A stretch of 52,330 bases of DNA, from contig DUUV01000095.1 in assembly GCA_012841375.1 (NCBI GenBank), positions 1-52,330 on the forward strand, in the 5' to 3' direction. Below are positions 1,257 through 41,676 of the stretch, piece after piece. A program made the translations under genes and the position numbers. The first letter of the stretch is position 1. Each line of letters starts with the position of its first letter. The notes beneath the pieces were generated by a model. The model searched no databases and was not told where the DNA came from. It saw only the letters and a list, made by a program, of their open reading frames with translations. The stretch is from Candidatus Fermentithermobacillaceae bacterium. Lineage in GTDB: Bacteria > Bacillota > Sulfobacillia > Fermentithermobacillales > Fermentithermobacillaceae.

Positions 1257-4200
1257 TTGAACCTTTCTGACAATGCTGTAGAGGTGCTGGAAAAGAGGTA
1301 CCTGAAGAAGGACGAAGCGGGAAAGCCCTTGGAGAGCCCCGCTCAAATGTTCTGGCGCGTCGCCAAGAACATTGCTCTCATGGATTTGCTGTATTACCCT
1401 GAGGTCTATTCCGGGCCGCAGGAACGACCCAAAAAGGTCCGGAGTGTTGCCGGTGCTCCCGAGAAGCCGGAAGTTGCCGCCGGGCACGAGTTCGCCATCT
1501 CCGAATGGGACTGGGCGACAGTCAAGATGGCCTTCGAGCGTCTGGAATCAAAGGGGCTCATGAAAGTCTCGTGGGATGATTTCAGGCAACTGGTGGAGTC
1601 AAAAAAGGACGAAGCCCGCGGGGTAGCGGTCAGGTTCTACGAACTCATGACCGAGGCCAAGTTCCTTCCAAATTCACCGGCCCTCATAAACGCCGGGCGG
1701 GAGCTCCAACAGCTTTCTGCTTGCTTCGTGCTGCCCGTTGAGGACTCGATGGGGAGTATCTTCGACTCCCTGAAGCATGCAGCTCTCATCCACCAATCCG
1801 GTGGTGGGACAGGCTTCAGTTTTAGCCGCCTAAGGCCCAAGAACGATGTCGTGAAGTCCACGGGCGGTGTGGCGTCGGGGCCAGTCTCATTCATGAAAGT
1901 GTTCAACGCTGCTACGGAAGCGGTCAAGCAGGGGGGTGTCAGGCGCGGGGCCAACATGGGCATCCTCCGTGTGGACCACCCGGACATACTCGAATTCATC
2001 ACCTGCAAGACAGATAATGCCGAGCTTACGAATTTCAACATATCGGTGGGCATCACCGAGAAGTTCATGCAGGCCGTGGAAGCGGGCGAGGACTATGAGT
2101 TGGTGAACCCGAGAAACGGCAAGATTACCGGGAAACTGAGCGCTCGGGAAGTCTTCGAGAAGATCGTCGACCAGGCCTGGCGGAACGGCGAACCGGGCAT
2201 CATCTTCCTCGACCGGCTGAACAGAGACAACCCCACTCCCGAGATAGGGGAGATCGAGAGCACAAATCCGTGCGTCGCCGGTGATACTCTTGTGTCCACC
2301 GAAATGGGCCTTATCCCTATCAGGGAAATAGCGGAGAGGTGGTCCACGGGAGGAGTCGGGGTAGCCATTGACCGGCGTGTCTCCCACGGTCGGATGGTCC
2401 GAGAAGGGACTTCGGGGACTGTTGTCGAGACGGTGACCGGAGTGGAAGTCGTGCCCCTGTCGAGGGCTTTCCGAACGGCTGTTAAGAACGTCATTCGACT
2501 CAAGACCAGACGTGGATACTCCATAGAGGTTACAGCCGACCACAAGGTTATGACGCCTCGAGGATGGGTGCCTGCCGGAAGCCTACGGCCGGGTGTGGAT
2601 TCGGTCCTTATTCAGTCCGGCGCCGGCAAGTTCAGCCTTGACCCATCGCTGCCGGTCCCGGTGAGGAACCTGAGGACCGGAGCCAATGGCCGTACATATC
2701 GAACCGATTTTCCGACAACCTGGTCCAGAGAGCTCGGCCTTACCTTAGGGTGGCTTGTCGGCGATGGTTGGCTCATTGACTCGGGGAAGAACTCTCGCGT
2801 TGGGTTCACCTTCGCTGAACAAGACCTCCAAGTCATGGAAACGGTTAAGTCGGCTCTGGACCGGTGGTACGGACCCGTGAAGCCCGTGAGGCGCAAGAGC
2901 GGCGTCTATCACCTCGGATATCACTCGAAGTCGGTGGTCGAGTTCTTCCAGAGCCTCGGGGTCAGGCCGCTAAGATCTGGCGACAAGAGAGTGCCCGAAT
3001 CACTCTTCAGGGCTACTCGCGAAGCGGTAGCCGGTTTCCTGCAGGGGATATTCACGGCCGGCGGAACTCTGGCGAGCCAACAGAACGGTACGGCCTATGT
3101 CGGGCTTACCTCGAAGTCCAGAGCTCTCCTTGAGGATGTGCAGATCCTCCTTCTCAACCTTGGGATCCTGTCAACCATCTATGACAGATCCAGGCCTCTT
3201 CGGAAGTCCTTCGCCTACAAACCCGTTCGTGGCTCTGAGAGAGTGTATGTGACTGACGGCATGTTGTACGAACTCCAGGTGAGCGGAGATAACCTGGGAT
3301 GCTTTATCGATGAAGTGGGGTTCGCCGATGACCGCTTCGCTCGGGAGATCGGATCGCTGAGAAGACGGTCAAGAGGGTTCTACAGTCAGCCGTACGTTGA
3401 TACTGTCGAGTCCCTCGAACCTGTCGGCGAAAAAGAGGTCTTCGATCTGACCGTACCCATCAGCCACTCCTTCATAGCCAACGGAATCGTCGTATCCAAC
3501 TGCGGAGAGCAGCCGCTCTTGCCCTATGAAGCCTGCTGCTTGGGGTCAATCAACCTAGGCGCTTTCACGAAGTCGGTGTGGGGGGCGAAGGAGAGGCCCA
3601 AGTCGCTGAGCGACAACATCGACTGGGCCGGACTCGGCAAGGCTGTCCGGGCAGGCGTGCATTTCCTAGACAACCTCATTGACGCCAACAAGTACCCGTT
3701 ACCTGAGATAGATGAAATGGCTCACGGCAACCGGAAGATCGGCTTGGGTATCATGGGCTGGTCCGACATGCTCCTTGACCTCGGCATACCTTACTGCTCC
3801 GAAGAAGCCCTGGAACTGGCCGAAAACGTGATGGGCTTCATTGAGCAGGAGTCGGTGAAAGCCTCCGTGGAACTGGCAAAGTCGCGAGGGACTTTCTCGA
3901 ACTACGGGAAGAGTGTCTTCGCGGCACAGCAGAAGCCTGTGAGAAACGCCACCACTACGACAATAGCGCCGACCGGGACCATCAGCATCATCGGGAGCGC
4001 CTCATCCGGCATTGAGCCGTTGTTCAGCATCGCTTTCACCAGGCATGTCCTGGACAAGAAGGCTCTCGTGGAAGTGAACCCCCGGTTCGAACGGGTGGCG
4101 CGCACCCTCGGGTTCTACAGCGACGGGCTGATGGAGAAGATCGCCCACCACGGATCTCTCGGCGGGCTCGACGGCGTTCCCGAGGAAGTCCGAAGGGTCT

Positions 4201-5030
4201 TCGTGACTGCCCATGACATAACGCCGGAGTGGCACATTAGGATGCAGGCCGCGTTCCAGAAGTACACGCACAACGCGGTATCCAAGACGGTCAACTTCCC
4301 TAACGAAGCCACCCGGGACGAGGTCAAGGAAGTGTTCATCCTTGCCAACAAGTTGGGCTGCAAGGGTGTCACCGTGTACCGCGATGGAAGCCGTAGCGAG
4401 CAAGTGCTTACTGTTGGCGCTGACAAGCAGGCCCAGGGCGACGGTACGGGGGCTCAGCCCCAGACAACCGGTCAGCTTTTCCCAGATCCTCACGAGACAC
4501 ATGGCAAGGCGAAGATAAACGGAGTGTGGGGCCATATTAAGCCCATAGAAAGGCCCATCCGTTTGGACGGCTTCACTGCCGCCAAGGAAACGCCTGTAGG
4601 CAAGCTGTTCCTCACTCTGAACGCCCTGAACGGCCATCCGGTGGAGCTCTTTGCCCAGATCGGTAAAGCCGGCAGCGACATATCTGCGTTCACCGAGGCC
4701 ATAGCCCGGCTGATATCAACCGCCCTTAGATCCGGCGTGGATCCTCAGGAGATCGCCGACCAGCTCTTGGGAATAGGCGGTTCTCGAGCGATTGGATTCG
4801 GACCAAATCGAGTTCGCTCCGTGCCGGACGCCATAGGGCAGTTCCTCGACGAGTACCTGAGAGGCTCCGCTGATCAGGAAGAGGACGAAGAGGACGCAGG
4901 GCCCATACAGGATTCTCTGCCCTTGGCGCCGGGTAAGAAATTTGGATTGTGTCCTCAGTGCGGCACCTGGAACCTGATCCATGTCGAGGGATGCGCCAAG
5001 TGTCTGGCTTGCGGGCACAGTGAGTGTTAG
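1257..5030 (+). CDS. nrdJ: Adenosylcobalamin-dependent (class II) ribonucleotide reductase with in-frame intein
   Basis: Class II ribonucleotide reductase, which makes deoxynucleotides with a B12-generated thiyl radical and no oxygen requirement. The 1257-residue precursor holds an N-terminal part (1-338), an intein (339-748) and the C-terminal part from Cys749. Recognisable blocks are the FLPNSPALINAG and HQSGGGTGFSFS stretches, NAELTNFNISVG, the split NP/CGEQPL active-site motif, the ATTTTIAPTGTISII phosphate-binding loop, a TSCPD-type region near 1060-1190, and a Cys-rich redox tail (CPQC, CAKCLAC). Without the intein it would be about 847 residues, normal for NrdJ. The start is TTG 1257, with GGGAGG at 1242-1247. 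The excised intein must restore the radical cysteine, so activity depends on splicing. Confidence 0.95.
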   Translation: MNLSDNAVEVLEKRYLKKDEAGKPLESPAQMFWRVAKNIALMDLLYYPEVYSGPQERPKKVRSVAGAPEKPEVAAGHEFAISEWDWATVKMAFERLESKGLMKVSWDDFRQLVESKKDEARGVAVRFYELMTEAKFLPNSPALINAGRELQQLSACFVLPVEDSMGSIFDSLKHAALIHQSGGGTGFSFSRLRPKNDVVKSTGGVASGPVSFMKVFNAATEAVKQGGVRRGANMGILRVDHPDILEFITCKTDNAELTNFNISVGITEKFMQAVEAGEDYELVNPRNGKITGKLSAREVFEKIVDQAWRNGEPGIIFLDRLNRDNPTPEIGEIESTNPCVAGDTLVSTEMGLIPIREIAERWSTGGVGVAIDRRVSHGRMVREGTSGTVVETVTGVEVVPLSRAFRTAVKNVIRLKTRRGYSIEVTADHKVMTPRGWVPAGSLRPGVDSVLIQSGAGKFSLDPSLPVPVRNLRTGANGRTYRTDFPTTWSRELGLTLGWLVGDGWLIDSGKNSRVGFTFAEQDLQVMETVKSALDRWYGPVKPVRRKSGVYHLGYHSKSVVEFFQSLGVRPLRSGDKRVPESLFRATREAVAGFLQGIFTAGGTLASQQNGTAYVGLTSKSRALLEDVQILLLNLGILSTIYDRSRPLRKSFAYKPVRGSERVYVTDGMLYELQVSGDNLGCFIDEVGFADDRFAREIGSLRRRSRGFYSQPYVDTVESLEPVGEKEVFDLTVPISHSFIANGIVVSNCGEQPLLPYEACCLGSINLGAFTKSVWGAKERPKSLSDNIDWAGLGKAVRAGVHFLDNLIDANKYPLPEIDEMAHGNRKIGLGIMGWSDMLLDLGIPYCSEEALELAENVMGFIEQESVKASVELAKSRGTFSNYGKSVFAAQQKPVRNATTTTIAPTGTISIIGSASSGIEPLFSIAFTRHVLDKKALVEVNPRFERVARTLGFYSDGLMEKIAHHGSLGGLDGVPEEVRRVFVTAHDITPEWHIRMQAAFQKYTHNAVSKTVNFPNEATRDEVKEVFILANKLGCKGVTVYRDGSRSEQVLTVGADKQAQGDGTGAQPQTTGQLFPDPHETHGKAKINGVWGHIKPIERPIRLDGFTAAKETPVGKLFLTLNALNGHPVELFAQIGKAGSDISAFTEAIARLISTALRSGVDPQEIADQLLGIGGSRAIGFGPNRVRSVPDAIGQFLDEYLRGSADQEEDEEDAGPIQDSLPLAPGKKFGLCPQCGTWNLIHVEGCAKCLACGHSEC
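2271..3500 (+). mobile_element. Intein with LAGLIDADG endonuclease domain inside nrdJ
   Basis: A 410-residue intein (residues 339-748 of the precursor). It begins with Cys339 (CVAGDTLVST, block A), has a block B TADH motif, and ends FIANGIVVSN, with Cys749 as the +1 nucleophile. Two LAGLIDADG-type helices are visible: LGWLVGDGWL with acidic Asp503, and FLQGIFTAGGTL, where the expected second acidic residue is Gly602. The penultimate residue is Ser and not the usual His. Splicing residues at both ends are otherwise intact. Inference: splicing is probably still active, while homing endonuclease activity is probably lost. The insertion is at the conserved NP/C site next to the thiyl-radical cysteine, a recurrent intein site in NrdJ proteins. 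Confidence 0.93.
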
Positions 5031-5401
5031 TCCACGGTTCTTTTCCGGTTCTTCTCTGACGGCCGGTGTTGTACCGGTCTAGGAATCGGATGACCGGAGG
5101 CGCGTCAGCGGGCGAAGAGATGAAAACGGGGAGCAGACTGCTCCCCGTTTGGTTCTTGATGGATTGGTCGAATGAAGTGTCGGCCGGGCGGCGGAGAAGT
5201 CGAACCTTGCCGGCTTGGACCACCCGGTCAGATACCGTGATCTCTCGCATATCCTGGTTACCAGAGTCACCAAGGTCCCCCGCCGTCGATCGAGTAGTCA
5301 GACAAGTGGCACTTGGGCATGGATAATCAATTTTATTCCAGAAGGAAACTGCGTATTGACGGCGAAATGTCAGAGACACAAAACTGGAAGGAGGTGACGT
5401 A
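5031..5401. other. 371-bp gap between nrdJ and the membrane cluster
   Basis: No credible gene. It holds the nrdJ terminator (5124-5150), a GC-rich stretch with several short inverted repeats around 5180-5245, and an AT-rich segment (5320-5340) just before the strong ribosome-binding site of the next gene. A GATAAT at 5322-5327 could serve as a -10 element, but no convincing -35 sits at the right distance. The promoter of the membrane cluster must lie here, but I cannot place it. Confidence 0.5.
5124..5150 (+). terminator. Rho-independent-like terminator after nrdJ
   Basis: A near-perfect inverted repeat, AAACGGGGAGCAG then CTGCTCCCCGTTT, separated by one base, ending in a short T run. It lies about 95 bases after the nrdJ stop and separates it from the membrane cluster. 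The A-flanked and T-flanked arms would let it work in both directions. Confidence 0.75.
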
Positions 5402-6175
5402 ATGTCAATCGTCAGCGGTTACAGTTTCGCGTTTTGGGTGGAACTCGTTTATCTGGCTGCGGTGATCGTCATGATCACAAGGGCCCGTGGCGGCATCAAG
5501 ATCCCTGAGATCTACAAGGTCGCGGGTCTTGAGGCTATGGACGAGGCCATCGGGCGCTGCACTGAGATGGGGAAGCCGGTGCACTTTTCTCCCGGTATCG
5601 GCGACCTGCAGAACGCTCAGACGCTCGCCGCCATGTCTATCCTCGGATACGTGGCTAAGCAGTGCGCGCGTTATGACACGGATCTCATCGCCACCAACAG
5701 GAACGTCATTGTCTACCCTCTCTCAGAGGAAATCGTGAAGCAATCCTATGCCGAGATCGGCAAGTTGGACAGCTTCAAGCCCGACAACGTCCGCTGGATC
5801 TCAGACGACCAGTTCGCCTATGCCACCGGCGTTACCGGTATCATGTTCCGCGAGAAGCCCGCTGCCAACATCCTCGTTGGAGCGTTCTGGGCTGAATCCT
5901 TGATCTTCGCGGAAGTCGGCTCCATCGCCGGCGCCATCCAGATCTCGGGTACCGCCAACACCCACCAGATCCCGTTCTTCGTAGCCGCTTGCGACTACTG
6001 CCTCATCGGTGAGGAGCTTTACGCTGCCAGCGCTTACCTAAGCAAGGAGCCCGTGCTTCTCGCCAGTCTGGTCGCTCAGGACTGGGGCAAGATGGTCGGA
6101 GTGGTCCTTATCGTCATTGGCACCATCATGTTCAGCGTTGGATCTGATTCTCTCAAGGTTCTGCTCTCCAAGTAA
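5402..6175 (+). CDS. DUF6754-like membrane-anchored protein, first gene of membrane cluster
   Basis: A 257-residue protein that I recognise as DUF6754-like; the function is unknown. One hydrophobic helix is near residues 8-26 and another near 231-248, flanking a soluble or membrane-associated domain. The domain has the conserved-looking stretches LEAMDEAIGRCTEMGKPVHF and PGIGDLQNAQTLA, then a hydrophobic, small-residue-rich part (VGAFWAESLIFAEVG, AGAIQISGTANTHQIPFF). There are no recognisable catalytic or nucleotide-binding motifs. ATG 5402 is preceded by an almost perfect GGAAGGAGGTGA at 5386-5397, implying high expression. It leads four co-directional genes with short gaps (27-49 bases), so a membrane complex is likely. 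The third gene has the same helix-domain-helix plan. Confidence 0.8.
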   Translation: MSIVSGYSFAFWVELVYLAAVIVMITRARGGIKIPEIYKVAGLEAMDEAIGRCTEMGKPVHFSPGIGDLQNAQTLAAMSILGYVAKQCARYDTDLIATNRNVIVYPLSEEIVKQSYAEIGKLDSFKPDNVRWISDDQFAYATGVTGIMFREKPAANILVGAFWAESLIFAEVGSIAGAIQISGTANTHQIPFFVAACDYCLIGEELYAASAYLSKEPVLLASLVAQDWGKMVGVVLIVIGTIMFSVGSDSLKVLLSK

Positions 6176-6224
6176 CCCATGTTCCTTGTCCTAGACCGGC
6201 TCAATCCGAAAGGAGGTGTACCGG

Positions 6225-6866
6225 ATGAAAAAGGAGATACCGGTAGCGATTACCCTAATCCTGGCAATCCTCTATGTGGCAGCCAACTACTTCACGGGAG
6301 TGTCGTTCCTTGAGACTACCAAGAATCTCTTGGACCAGTGGTTTCTGATCGTAGCCGCCTGGGCGGTGCTCGTCGGTTCGGTCAACCTGACCCAGATCCA
6401 CGGCCGTAAGGTAGCTGCCAAGCGGGAAGGATGGTTCTACAGCGCCTGGCTGATAGCTTGTCTATACGGAATGATGTTCTTCGGCATCTTCGTAGCCAAG
6501 AATGCATCATATCCTGGTTGGACTTTCATGTACAACCAGCTCATCGCTCCAATGAACGCTACTGTCTATTCCACCATAGTGTTCTATATCGGCTCGGCCG
6601 CTTACAGAGCCTTTAGGGTACGTAGCCCTGAAGCGTCGGTCCTTCTAGTCACGGCTCTAATCATGATGCTAGGTCGCGTGCCGTTGGGCAGAATGCTGCT
6701 CGGCGGAAATCCAGCTCTTTCGCAGATGGCTGACTGGATTCTGAACGTGCCCAACTCAGCGGGTATGCGAGGCATCCAGGTCGGCGCCTGCTTGGGAGGC
6801 GTGGCGACCGCTCTTCGTATCGCTCTTGGAATCGAGCGCGGCCACTTGGGTGGCACGGGTGAATAA
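6225..6866 (+). CDS. Polytopic membrane protein, second gene of cluster
   Basis: A 213-residue integral membrane protein with about five or six predicted helices (roughly residues 4-22, 37-56, 72-92, 112-130, 138-157 and a weaker one near 185-200). I do not recognise a family. Small-residue and Arg motifs (MMLGRVPLGRM) sit near the fifth helix. ATG 6225 is chosen because AAAGGAGG lies at 6209-6216, an ideal spacing; the in-frame GTG 6216 falls inside that site and is unlikely to be used. It follows the DUF6754-like gene by 49 bases and precedes the third gene by 27. Its helix pattern resembles the fourth gene, so the two may be related membrane subunits. Confidence 0.82.
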   Translation: MKKEIPVAITLILAILYVAANYFTGVSFLETTKNLLDQWFLIVAAWAVLVGSVNLTQIHGRKVAAKREGWFYSAWLIACLYGMMFFGIFVAKNASYPGWTFMYNQLIAPMNATVYSTIVFYIGSAAYRAFRVRSPEASVLLVTALIMMLGRVPLGRMLLGGNPALSQMADWILNVPNSAGMRGIQVGACLGGVATALRIALGIERGHLGGTGE

Positions 6867-6893
6867 CACTCCACGATAAGGAGGTGAATAAGC

Positions 6894-7727
6894 GTGTGGG
6901 AAAAGCTCGCGAACGTTGATAGGCGTTGGATCTACGCCTTGATGATATTCGTTATCGCGCTCGCCCTGATTAAGCCCATCGGTCTTGCCATCGTACCTTC
7001 GGCCGATACCCAGAAGGTATATGACATCATCGAGAACCTTCCTCGCGGAAGTATCGTGTGGATGGGGATGGAGTTTTCGGCAGGCGGCATTCCCGAGCTC
7101 ATGCCGGCCCTCCAGTCCATGATAAGGCAAGGCTTCAAGGAGGGGCGTGACCTTAGGTTCGTGTGCGCCGGGATGTGGCAGATGGCCGGTGACATGGCTG
7201 ACCAGGCGTTCAGCATTGTAAAGGAAGAGTTTCCTCACAAGCAGTACGGGGTCGACTGGGTCAACATCGGTTATAAGCCCGGCGGAGACGTTCTCCTTCA
7301 GCAGTATCAGAACAGCATCATAGAAACTGCTAAGGGAGTCGACTTTTACGGAGATGATCTCAGTCAGTTCCCGCTCATGAAGGAATTTACCAGCCTGAAG
7401 CAGGCCGAGTTGGTGGCCATCTTCTGCACCGGTACTCCCGGTGAGAAGGAATATATCAAGCACGTGACCAGCCCCAACAAGATCCCGTTGGTGGAGGCTG
7501 CTATTTCGGTTAGTATTCCCGAGTGCATGCCCCTTGTCCAGGCAGGCCAGATCAGTGGCCTCTTGGCCGGGATGAAGGGTGCCGCCGAGTACGAGGTCTT
7601 GGTAGAGAAGCCAGGCTCGGCTACTGCAGGTATGGACGCTCAGTCGTTCTCTCACGCTCTCATCATAATCTTCATGATTCTTGGTAACCTGGGCTATGTG
7701 TTTACCAAGAACAAGAAGGAATCATAG
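6894..7727 (+). CDS. Membrane-anchored protein with alpha/beta domain, third gene of cluster
   Basis: A 277-residue protein with one N-terminal helix (about 14-34), a large domain (about 40-245) and one C-terminal helix (about 254-272). The domain looks alpha/beta in pattern (GSIVWMGMEFSAGG, RDLRFVCAGMW, AELVAIFCTGTPG), with a run of Gly-rich turns. I recognise no named family and no metal- or nucleotide-binding motif. The start is GTG 6894 behind AAGGAGGTGA (6878-6887). The plan helix-domain-helix matches the first gene of the cluster. Both also have an N-x-x-IP motif followed by an acidic, small-residue helix near the C-terminal end of the domain, so distant paralogy is possible. A role in the same complex is inferred from layout only. 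Confidence 0.82.
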   Translation: MWEKLANVDRRWIYALMIFVIALALIKPIGLAIVPSADTQKVYDIIENLPRGSIVWMGMEFSAGGIPELMPALQSMIRQGFKEGRDLRFVCAGMWQMAGDMADQAFSIVKEEFPHKQYGVDWVNIGYKPGGDVLLQQYQNSIIETAKGVDFYGDDLSQFPLMKEFTSLKQAELVAIFCTGTPGEKEYIKHVTSPNKIPLVEAAISVSIPECMPLVQAGQISGLLAGMKGAAEYEVLVEKPGSATAGMDAQSFSHALIIIFMILGNLGYVFTKNKKES

Positions 7728-7758
7728 CGGGTTGACATCCTGAGGAGGTGAAACAGAA

Positions 7759-8391
7759 ATGTCCGAAACTGCTCTTACGGTGGGGACTTGGCTTCAGGCC
7801 TTCTTCACTATCGTCTTGGTTTCCGCTGTCTTCAAGGACAACCCGCTATACCGGTTCGCTGAGCACACCTATGTAGGGCTCTACGCCGGCTATGGAGTCG
7901 CGCTCACGTACTTCAACTATATCCGCCTGAACGTCACGACGGATATAGCGAAAGACGGCAAGTATATCGTGCTTGTGCCCATCATCATCGGTCTGCTCAT
8001 CTACACCCGGTATATAAAGTCCATCTCGTGGCTTAGCCGGTACACCATCTGCTTCCAGTTGGGTATCGGTTCAGGGTACGTCCTTGCCAAGGACTTCAAG
8101 CCGTTTTTCGTGGACCAGGTCAGGGCAACGTTCCTACAGCTCTGGGGAAGCGGAGACTGGTGGGTAGATGTCTCCAACTGGATCTACGTTATCGGCACCG
8201 TCTGTTCCTTGGTCTACTTCCTGTTCACGATCCAGAAGAAGGGTTTCCAGGGCAGGGTCTCTATGGTCGGTCGCTATACAATGATGATAGCGTTCGGCGC
8301 CGCCTTCGGAAACACCGTTATGGCTCGTGTATCGCTCTTCTTGGGTAGGATGCAGTTCCTCTTGGGAGACTGGCTGCACCTAATCAAGTAA
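7759..8391 (+). CDS. Polytopic membrane protein, fourth gene of cluster
   Basis: A 210-residue integral membrane protein with about six helices (near 8-24, 38-56, 72-88, 92-110, 138-158 and 170-190). I recognise no family. A short segment near residues 110-135 (DFKPFFVDQVRATF, GSGDWWVDVSN) links two halves. The C-terminal helix has the pattern MMIAFGAAFGN followed by ARVSLFLGRM, loosely like the second gene. ATG 7759 follows GAGGAGGTGA at 7742-7751. It ends the cluster: a strong hairpin terminator starts 18 bases after the stop. The order small-domain protein, polytopic protein, small-domain protein, polytopic protein suggests a duplicated two-gene module. Confidence 0.82.
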   Translation: MSETALTVGTWLQAFFTIVLVSAVFKDNPLYRFAEHTYVGLYAGYGVALTYFNYIRLNVTTDIAKDGKYIVLVPIIIGLLIYTRYIKSISWLSRYTICFQLGIGSGYVLAKDFKPFFVDQVRATFLQLWGSGDWWVDVSNWIYVIGTVCSLVYFLFTIQKKGFQGRVSMVGRYTMMIAFGAAFGNTVMARVSLFLGRMQFLLGDWLHLIK

Positions 8392-8409
8392 CGGTCTATC
8401 TGGAAGATG

Positions 8410-8433
8410 GGGCGGCAGAGAGATCTGCCGCCC
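8410..8433 (+). terminator. Terminator closing the four-gene membrane cluster
   Basis: A perfect 10-bp stem (GGGCGGCAGA with TCTGCCGCCC) around a GAGA loop, followed by a T-rich stretch. It sits between the convergent ends of the membrane cluster and the PHP-domain gene and could serve both. Confidence 0.85.
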
Positions 8434-8487
8434 TTGTTCATGTCGGAATGAGTGCGGCGCCTGGCTCATGCTCGGCACGTACTCCCT

Positions 8488-40644: not shown

Positions 40645-41676
40645 CTAGAGAGTCATTTGACCCATCCTGTCCAGACTTTCCATGATGAACGCGTCCATTT
40701 CTTCCGGGCCGGTCCACTTCTCCCTGAAGGATTCGAGTAGTGCCGGGACATAGACAAAGCCGTCCCCGGACTCATATAGTGCCCGCTTATCTCCTTCGTA
40801 AGGGTTGAGGCGGTGCGCCATCCATATGGTAGCCGCCCGGACCAAGGTTTCTTCAAACACCCTCAGCCACGATTCGGCCCCGTCATCCCAAGCGTACTGC
40901 ATTTTGACCATGGCTTCCGCGACCGGCTTCGTGAAAAGGTCGCGGCGGCGGGCTACGATGTTCTCTCTCTGGCGTGTGATGGCTTTCTCGAACACGGTGT
41001 GGAGAATTTCATGGGCGATTGATTGGGGCCTTGGGTTGGCCAAGACTGCGTAGAGCACTCCGTCTTTCCTCACGAAATCCGCGATCTGCCTGGCCTGAAG
41101 TGGGTTGGGGATGACGGAGAAATCCGGGATATCCGCCAACGTAGTGCCAAGTCCCGTGTCTAGCCAGTCTATCGCTTCTTTCGCCGCAGCGCGGAAAGGC
41201 TCAAGTTGCTCTGGGCCCATCCATCCGGAGAAACGGCTCCATAAGACGCGGAGAGCCGGGCTCTCCTCAACGAGGCGATGGAACTGCGGATATTGCCGGA
41301 CCCATTCGATCGTGTCTGCCGCCTTGTTCCCGGGTGCCGTCGGAAAACGAGAGACAGATGTTAGGACTTTTGTCTCATCATCATACCCGATCTGTCCGCC
41401 GGGCTCCTTTCTCTCCAGGTGAAAGGTGGCTTGGAGAAGCATGGCCGCCCGCGGCCAGTAGGGGTTTACGCCTTGGCCGCCAAGACGCGCTTTGCTGAAG
41501 TAGGCCAGGGCATCCTCCGGCCATGCGTGCGCTCGGATGTCTTGAACGAGTGCCGAGAGCATGCCTCCCGGCGGGGCGCTTTTCGCAGCCAGGTCGTATC
41601 CTGAAGCCGTAAGCCCTGTATAGAGGACGAAAACAGGCCTACTCAGGCTTACGTCAAAAGGCACTCTGGATGGCAC
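40645..41676 (-). CDS. HEXXH zincin-like protein
   Basis: A 343-residue protein with a zinc-protease motif HEILH near residue 221 (SIAHEILHTVFEKA), followed about 50 residues later by WLRVFEETLVRAAT, whose Glu could be the third ligand. This HEXXH plus E-x-x-(I/V)RAAT pattern recurs in the gene at 50834-51847 (HEFSH, then FDELFIRAAT), so the two look like diverged relatives; DUF4932-like is my best guess. No signal peptide or helix is seen, so it acts in the cytoplasm unless exported otherwise. An N-terminal stretch (LSRPVFVLYTGLTASGYDL) and a mid-protein alpha-helical part have no recognisable family. Confidence 0.7.
   Translation of the reverse strand: MPSRVPFDVSLSRPVFVLYTGLTASGYDLAAKSAPPGGMLSALVQDIRAHAWPEDALAYFSKARLGGQGVNPYWPRAAMLLQATFHLERKEPGGQIGYDDETKVLTSVSRFPTAPGNKAADTIEWVRQYPQFHRLVEESPALRVLWSRFSGWMGPEQLEPFRAAAKEAIDWLDTGLGTTLADIPDFSVIPNPLQARQIADFVRKDGVLYAVLANPRPQSIAHEILHTVFEKAITRQRENIVARRRDLFTKPVAEAMVKMQYAWDDGAESWLRVFEETLVRAATIWMAHRLNPYEGDKRALYESGDGFVYVPALLESFREKWTGPEEMDAFIMESLDRMGQMTL

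Follow-up and report, generated by a model that had tools for sequence, protein, structure and literature searches.

A conserved four-gene membrane cassette containing DUF6754 as a candidate family of ATPase-free transporters

Four neighboring plus-strand genes, here called A, B, C, and D, constitute a conserved unit, in which a fixed gene set is combined with joint presence across genomes and co-evolution of its members. The cassette takes up positions 5402–8391 of the window, which is the whole stretch of 52,330 nucleotides that was analyzed (contig C126 of a Fermentithermobacillaceae genome of 2.37 Mb in 157 contigs). It encodes two proteins in which one domain is held between two transmembrane (TM) helices (A and C) and two polytopic proteins with about six helices each (B and D). 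Our favored reading, to which we give somewhat better than even weight, is that the cassette represents a new family of four-subunit transporters that operate without an ATPase and import peptides or modified amino acids. The genes are arranged as follows.

5402–6175, plus strand: gene A (DUF6754, PF20539); TM helix, six β/α units (Rossmann-like), TM helix; domain predicted to be cytoplasmic
6225–6866, plus strand: gene B; about six TM helices, N-terminus inside; without a Pfam family
6894–7727, plus strand: gene C; TM helix, six-stranded α/β domain, TM helix; domain predicted to be extracytoplasmic; without a Pfam family
7759–8391, plus strand: gene D; about six TM helices, N-terminus apparently outside; without a Pfam family

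A preliminary description of the window had recognized the first gene alone, as DUF6754-like, and this is borne out by the family searches. Gene A is a full-length member of DUF6754 (Pfam PF20539; E 1.2e-95, 319.9 bits against a cut-off of 27, model positions 14–253 of 257). Genes C and D have no Pfam match at E ≤ 1, the Pfam matches of gene B all remain below threshold, and B, C, and D have no NCBIfam match above cut-off; NCBIfam contributes no further match above cut-off for the four genes. The assignment of gene B to TMD0_ABC in Pfam was dropped because its score is below the cut-off. Gene B starts at ATG 6225, and an earlier GTG at 6216 falls within its own Shine-Dalgarno (SD) sequence. 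Upstream of the cassette lies a ribonucleotide reductase gene (1257–5030) with an in-frame insert of ~410 amino acids (about 2271–3500) that begins with CVAGDTLV and ends with NGIVVSN before CGEQPL; judged by its sequence, the insert has the look of an intein.

The helix-domain-helix build of A and C had likewise been proposed beforehand, and here hydropathy agrees with confident structure models (mean pLDDT 91.2 from an alignment of 72 sequences for A, and 96.4 from 74 sequences for C). In the predictions, both proteins follow the same order of elements with a TM helix, six β/α units, and a second TM helix. Searches of structures and families place none of the four proteins in an unrelated known family. 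Compared with PDB folds, A and C yield nothing below E 0.001 except for one implausible receptor fusion match for C, and their matches to solved structures are generic Rossmann-like ones alone. Profile searches against PDB sequences give nothing significant for the core of A, B, C, or D. Two candidates were rejected. The eIF2B/ribose-bisphosphate isomerase fold bears a weak likeness to C (probability 1.0, TM 0.3) and was dropped as generic or unsupported. The resemblance of A to MtnA (profile E 0.015) was also dropped; the segment of A in question is modeled as a helix, and its MtnA counterpart is a strand.

The domain of A is predicted to face the cytoplasm and that of C the outside, based on positive-inside charges and on exported N-terminal extensions in homologs. 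In gene A, the 15 residues after the first TM helix carry 4.1 Lys/Arg against 0.6 Asp/Glu, and in gene C they carry 0.9 Lys/Arg against 2.6 Asp/Glu, with a positive C-terminus. Homologs of A in diderm phyla possess an additional N-terminal part that is FN3-like in many and that starts in some with a signal-peptide-like stretch, and an exported N-terminus combined with a cytoplasmic DUF6754 domain agrees with these extensions. B looks to have its N-terminus inside and D, less clearly, outside. A and C combine an opposite charge pattern with the same helix/strand order, but profile–profile comparison gives weak values for A with C (p 0.009) and for B with D (p 0.09). An arrangement of A+B and C+D as two inverted half-units is attractive but tentative, any similarity within the two pairs lying at the edge of detection.

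Every one of the 156 complete modules found in the survey of DUF6754 neighborhoods has its four genes on one strand in the order A-B-C-D, and incomplete modules mostly break off where the contig or the locus stops. A few DUF6754 genes are solitary, for example in L061, L085, and L086, with no B-C-D although the sequence continues downstream. The genome of the window harbors seven DUF6754 copies, full or cut; each has B- and C-like genes next to it, and then D where the contig permits. An eighth copy (L205:1814-4960) consists of B-C-D and is cut at the contig end. Relatives hold up to 27 cassette copies per genome. Of 121 class genomes, 47 carry A and 48 carry C; the two sets coincide save for one genome that has C without A (Fisher 5e-33), and both genes are absent from the remaining ones. 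Within each of three genomes that have 10–15 copies, the distance matrices of A, B, C, and D correlate with one another as well (r 0.56–0.81, reached by 0 of 2000 permutations), the four copies of the window genome being too few for this comparison. Fusions between the subunits were not found. Judged from this conservation, the four products would physically assemble into one complex, and the earlier proposal of an undescribed membrane complex is thus well supported by fixed order, co-occurrence, and the lack of a match to a known family or structure. That four unrelated membrane genes stand side by side by chance could be argued from the finding that A, B, C, and D share no significant sequence similarity with one another, but the fixed order in 156 modules from many phyla, the joint presence, and the co-evolution reduce this probability to a negligible one, and the conserved gene order refutes it.

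The distribution of the cassette is broad. The DUF6754 scan, which used one genome per species and returned 530 confirmed places, of which 80 loci were kept, located DUF6754 in Bacillota, WOR-3/Stahlbacteria, Zixibacteria, Eisenbacteria, Latescibacteria, Cloacimonadota, Edwardsbacteria, Fermentibacteria, Coatesbacteria, and Riflebacteria. DUF6754 is also present in two metagenome-assembled genomes labeled archaeal, single records for which binning errors are possible. All 14 well-known control genomes lack the cassette. A tree built from 92 A sequences joins the window copy to copies of ten family genomes, each of which contributes one or two (support 0.95), and the larger clade around them (0.90) also takes in the copies of all eight single-copy class genomes. 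By this placement, the window cassette probably represents a widespread core type rather than one of the family-specific expansions.

The signals around the cassette that bear on its expression are listed below.

5124–5150, plus strand: terminator-like hairpin between the ribonucleotide reductase gene and the cassette; 12-pair stem; hairpin counts are not clearly above those of shuffles
5299–5327, plus strand: weak σ70-like promoter match, CAGACA-17-GATAAT; 9 of 12 positions, alone not above chance
5389–5396, plus strand: SD sequence of gene A, AGGAGGTG
6211–6218, plus strand: SD sequence of gene B
6879–6886, plus strand: SD sequence of gene C
7743–7750, plus strand: SD sequence of gene D
8409–8434, plus strand: terminator-like hairpin 3′ of D; 11-pair stem, z −4.1, short T-run

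The near-perfect ribosome-binding sites and the short gaps noted before are both found again. The SD matches at the four starts span 9–10 nt and are the four best of the window, bar one tie, and the intergenic gaps measure 27–49 bp. Only one of the 34 other gene calls of the window (40645–41676, minus strand) has an SD match of 9 nt. The motif AGGAGGTG occurs eight times in the whole window against 2.4 expected, and four of the eight are located at the cassette. Two paralogs, L008 and L009, have these strong SD sites in part, and L010 and L011 do not. The terminator-like hairpin upstream and the stable hairpin after D make the cassette look like a transcription unit of its own. The shared terminator that had been proposed is matched by the latter hairpin as far as its stability goes, but its T-run is short and it does not appear in the terminator scan list. 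The region upstream of the cassette has no Rfam match.

The claim of an expression design stronger than that of housekeeping genes holds for SD strength. Codon adaptation is high in A (rank 2 among 109 genes), C (rank 9), and D (rank 16) but low in B (rank 97). The reference was the ribosomal-protein set from the S10-spc region of the same genome, and codon and neighbor statistics were computed on sampled regions of it. As the ribosomal genes themselves scatter widely on this scale, codon adaptation lends weak support to high expression, and the suggested abundance of the complex draws on SD strength and, in part, on codon usage as the two lines that bear on it. Strong SD sites and the high codon adaptation of A and C suit a bulk function and argue against a sensor or receptor complex that would report amino-acid derivatives across the membrane. 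An α/β domain on either membrane side would suit signaling, as would many paralogs, but a receptor would hardly need two polytopic subunits, and the recurrent neighbor clusters contain no conserved regulator, kinase, or cyclase; we consider such a role very unlikely.

The genes that adjoin the paralogs are suggestive of nitrogen-rich substrates. Within the Bacillota sample, 28 genes lie directly downstream of D on the same strand at a distance of ≤500 bp, and 11 of these 28 appear to encode C-N hydrolases (several assigned by eye), which include D-aminoacylase-like, Xaa-Pro dipeptidase-like, and creatininase-like proteins, LamB/YcsF (5-oxoprolinase subunit), γ-glutamyltranspeptidase, and M24. 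M19 is also among the hydrolase families that adjoin paralogs. A Pfam tally of 93 immediate neighbors counts Amidohydro_1 10 times, M20 four times, and M24 three times; the 10 of 93 for Amidohydro_1 compare with three amidohydrolases among 205 control genes (p 7e-4), where the hydrolase class was defined after inspection and partly by eye and the control regions stem from fewer genomes. Because the class was chosen post hoc and hydrolases accompany a part of the paralogs only, the association is suggestive. The window copy has no adjoining amidase; it is followed by a PHP-domain gene on the other strand, beyond which lie a dapA-like aldolase and then an aminotransferase of the PhnW/pyridoxamine-pyruvate type. 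At the eighth copy of the genome (L205:1814-4960), a D-aminoacylase-like gene is located 55 bp 3′ of D, which makes it a good case for substrate assignment.

In several diderm phyla, TonB receptors are encoded ≤1.1 kb 3′ of the cassette on the same strand (12 of 80 loci), and ExbB/ExbD lie beyond the receptor in some of these loci. The importer is the reading that fits best, given the expansion of paralogs, the paired hydrolases, the TonB receptors, one domain on each membrane side, and two polytopic subunits without an ATPase. The Rossmann-like domain of C would capture the substrate outside of the cell, B and D, with ~12 helices in apparently opposite orientation, would form the path through the membrane, and the similar-looking domain of A would be positioned on the inner side. 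The imported compounds would be small and nitrogen-rich, such as peptides or N-acylated, cyclic, or otherwise modified amino acids. Paralogs would differ in their substrate, each being paired with a cytoplasmic hydrolase that opens it, and in diderm phyla the TonB receptor would carry the substrate across the outer membrane.

The same complex could also work in the outward direction and export what the fermentation of amino acids yields, be it amino acids, organic acids, or another product, with the hydrolases feeding the same pathway. The published genome that named the bacterial family is that of a predicted peptide and amino-acid fermenter (PMC10215811). This speaks for the importer as well, but fermentation requires export; glycine-cleavage genes are also found nearby in several phyla. 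Export is nevertheless unlikely, as the TonB receptors directly 3′ of the cassette point to import, paralog-specific hydrolases of varied imported amides suit uptake, and an extracytoplasmic domain like that of C is typical of capture.

One branch of loci argues against simple uptake, since its GlmL-like and RnfC_N-like neighbors are left unexplained. Loci of other phyla repeat, partly or wholly, the order GcvPB, small protein, GlmL-like, RnfC_N-like, A-B-C-D, LplA, and TonB receptor, and in 20 of the 80 loci the RnfC_N-like gene precedes A by 4–397 bp. The GlmL/MutL-like ASKHA proteins and the RnfC_N-like barrel-sandwich proteins, the latter without an NCBIfam match, are encoded upstream of or near the cassette in ~20 loci of several phyla (e.g., L083:6594-9572, L093:6678-9693, and L068:13564-15390), accompanied by glycine-cleavage genes and lipoate ligase. 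These loci are perhaps an extended version of the cassette system. A small protein of ~110–150 amino acids with the motif VPAIFFLESxKPLSFLGxQ, which belongs to no known family, adjoins the GlmL-like gene (L109:6196-6651 and 18 further loci).

Such neighbors would be in keeping with a membrane-bound enzyme complex, in which the domains of A and C catalyze reactions on each side of the membrane and are possibly ion-coupled like sodium-pumping decarboxylases. Both domains have α/β folds, and their alignments retain conserved acidic residues and an Arg. The invariant columns, however, show no evident nucleotide-binding glycine motif and no evident conserved Ser, Cys, or Lys nucleophile, there is no match to an enzyme family, and 7–27 paralogs beside different hydrolases suggest varied substrates instead of one reaction. 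We therefore give little credence to catalysis as the main role. The alternative of an energy-coupling unit, raised in the preliminary description, finds no support; no ATPase motif is seen in the four proteins, no conserved P-loop is present in the alignments of A and C, and the pattern of paralogs and substrate enzymes suits uptake better. The transporter that had been suggested beside it gains indirect support from paralog expansion, hydrolases, and TonB receptors.

A search for sequence links or convincing fold links between A–D and known transporters returned none, so that the reading as a transporter rests on context and architecture, from which we infer transport, its inward direction, the substrate class, and ion coupling. 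An ion-binding site or energy source was not identified in the cassette. A further-reaching version of the importer, which we hold tentatively and below even weight, is an undescribed, inverted pseudo-symmetric class of transporter with A+B facing in and C+D facing out, each half-unit having one membrane-anchored Rossmann-like domain. It would occur in many uncultured phyla of bacteria as well as in two archaeal records, and a single genome would hold up to 27 versions that differ in their specificity for modified amino acids and peptides.

TRAP and TTT systems are secondary transporters with a binding protein. The cassette resembles them in its presumed working only: several polytopic and small subunits would sit in the membrane together with a capture domain on its outer side, an ATPase is lacking, and each genome may hold many paralogs. 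It differs in that it contains no subunit of the DctQ/DctM or TctA/TctB/TctC families (Pfam, NCBIfam), that two helices tether the domain presumed to capture the substrate, to which a second domain corresponds on the inner side, and that it comprises four subunits. ABC peptide importers (TC 3.A.1.5) have the same presumed job; A–D, however, have no ABC_tran match and include no ATPase subunit or other member of the ABC kind. The GlmL/MutL family (PF13941) adjoins the cassette in the ~20 loci named above with proteins that score below the NCBIfam equivalog cut-offs, and it has no part in the window cassette. Pfam gives no function for DUF6754 and does not mention the three partner genes, and the open-access literature, to which the search extended, holds no paper on DUF6754 or on the four-gene cassette. 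In the passages of PMC10215811 that were consulted, uptake is credited to ABC systems, including several peptide importers, and the cassette goes unmentioned. As DUF6754 has no assigned function, its three partners are covered by neither Pfam nor NCBIfam, and the cassette was found nowhere described, the system ranks as new in comparison with Pfam, NCBIfam, PDB, and the open-access literature.

If the cassette is a transporter, it would add a family with a new architecture to a broad kind of system that is already known. Its presence in many phyla, its absence from the control genomes, its up to 27 copies per genome, and its occurrence in peptide-fermenting lineages make it likely to be a main nutrient route in organisms that are common among the uncultured inhabitants of sediments and digesters. 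The hydrolase that adjoins a paralog would suggest what this paralog transports, so that the question can be tested directly, and knowledge of the cassette's function would sharpen metabolic predictions for genomes in which known families alone receive the credit for uptake.
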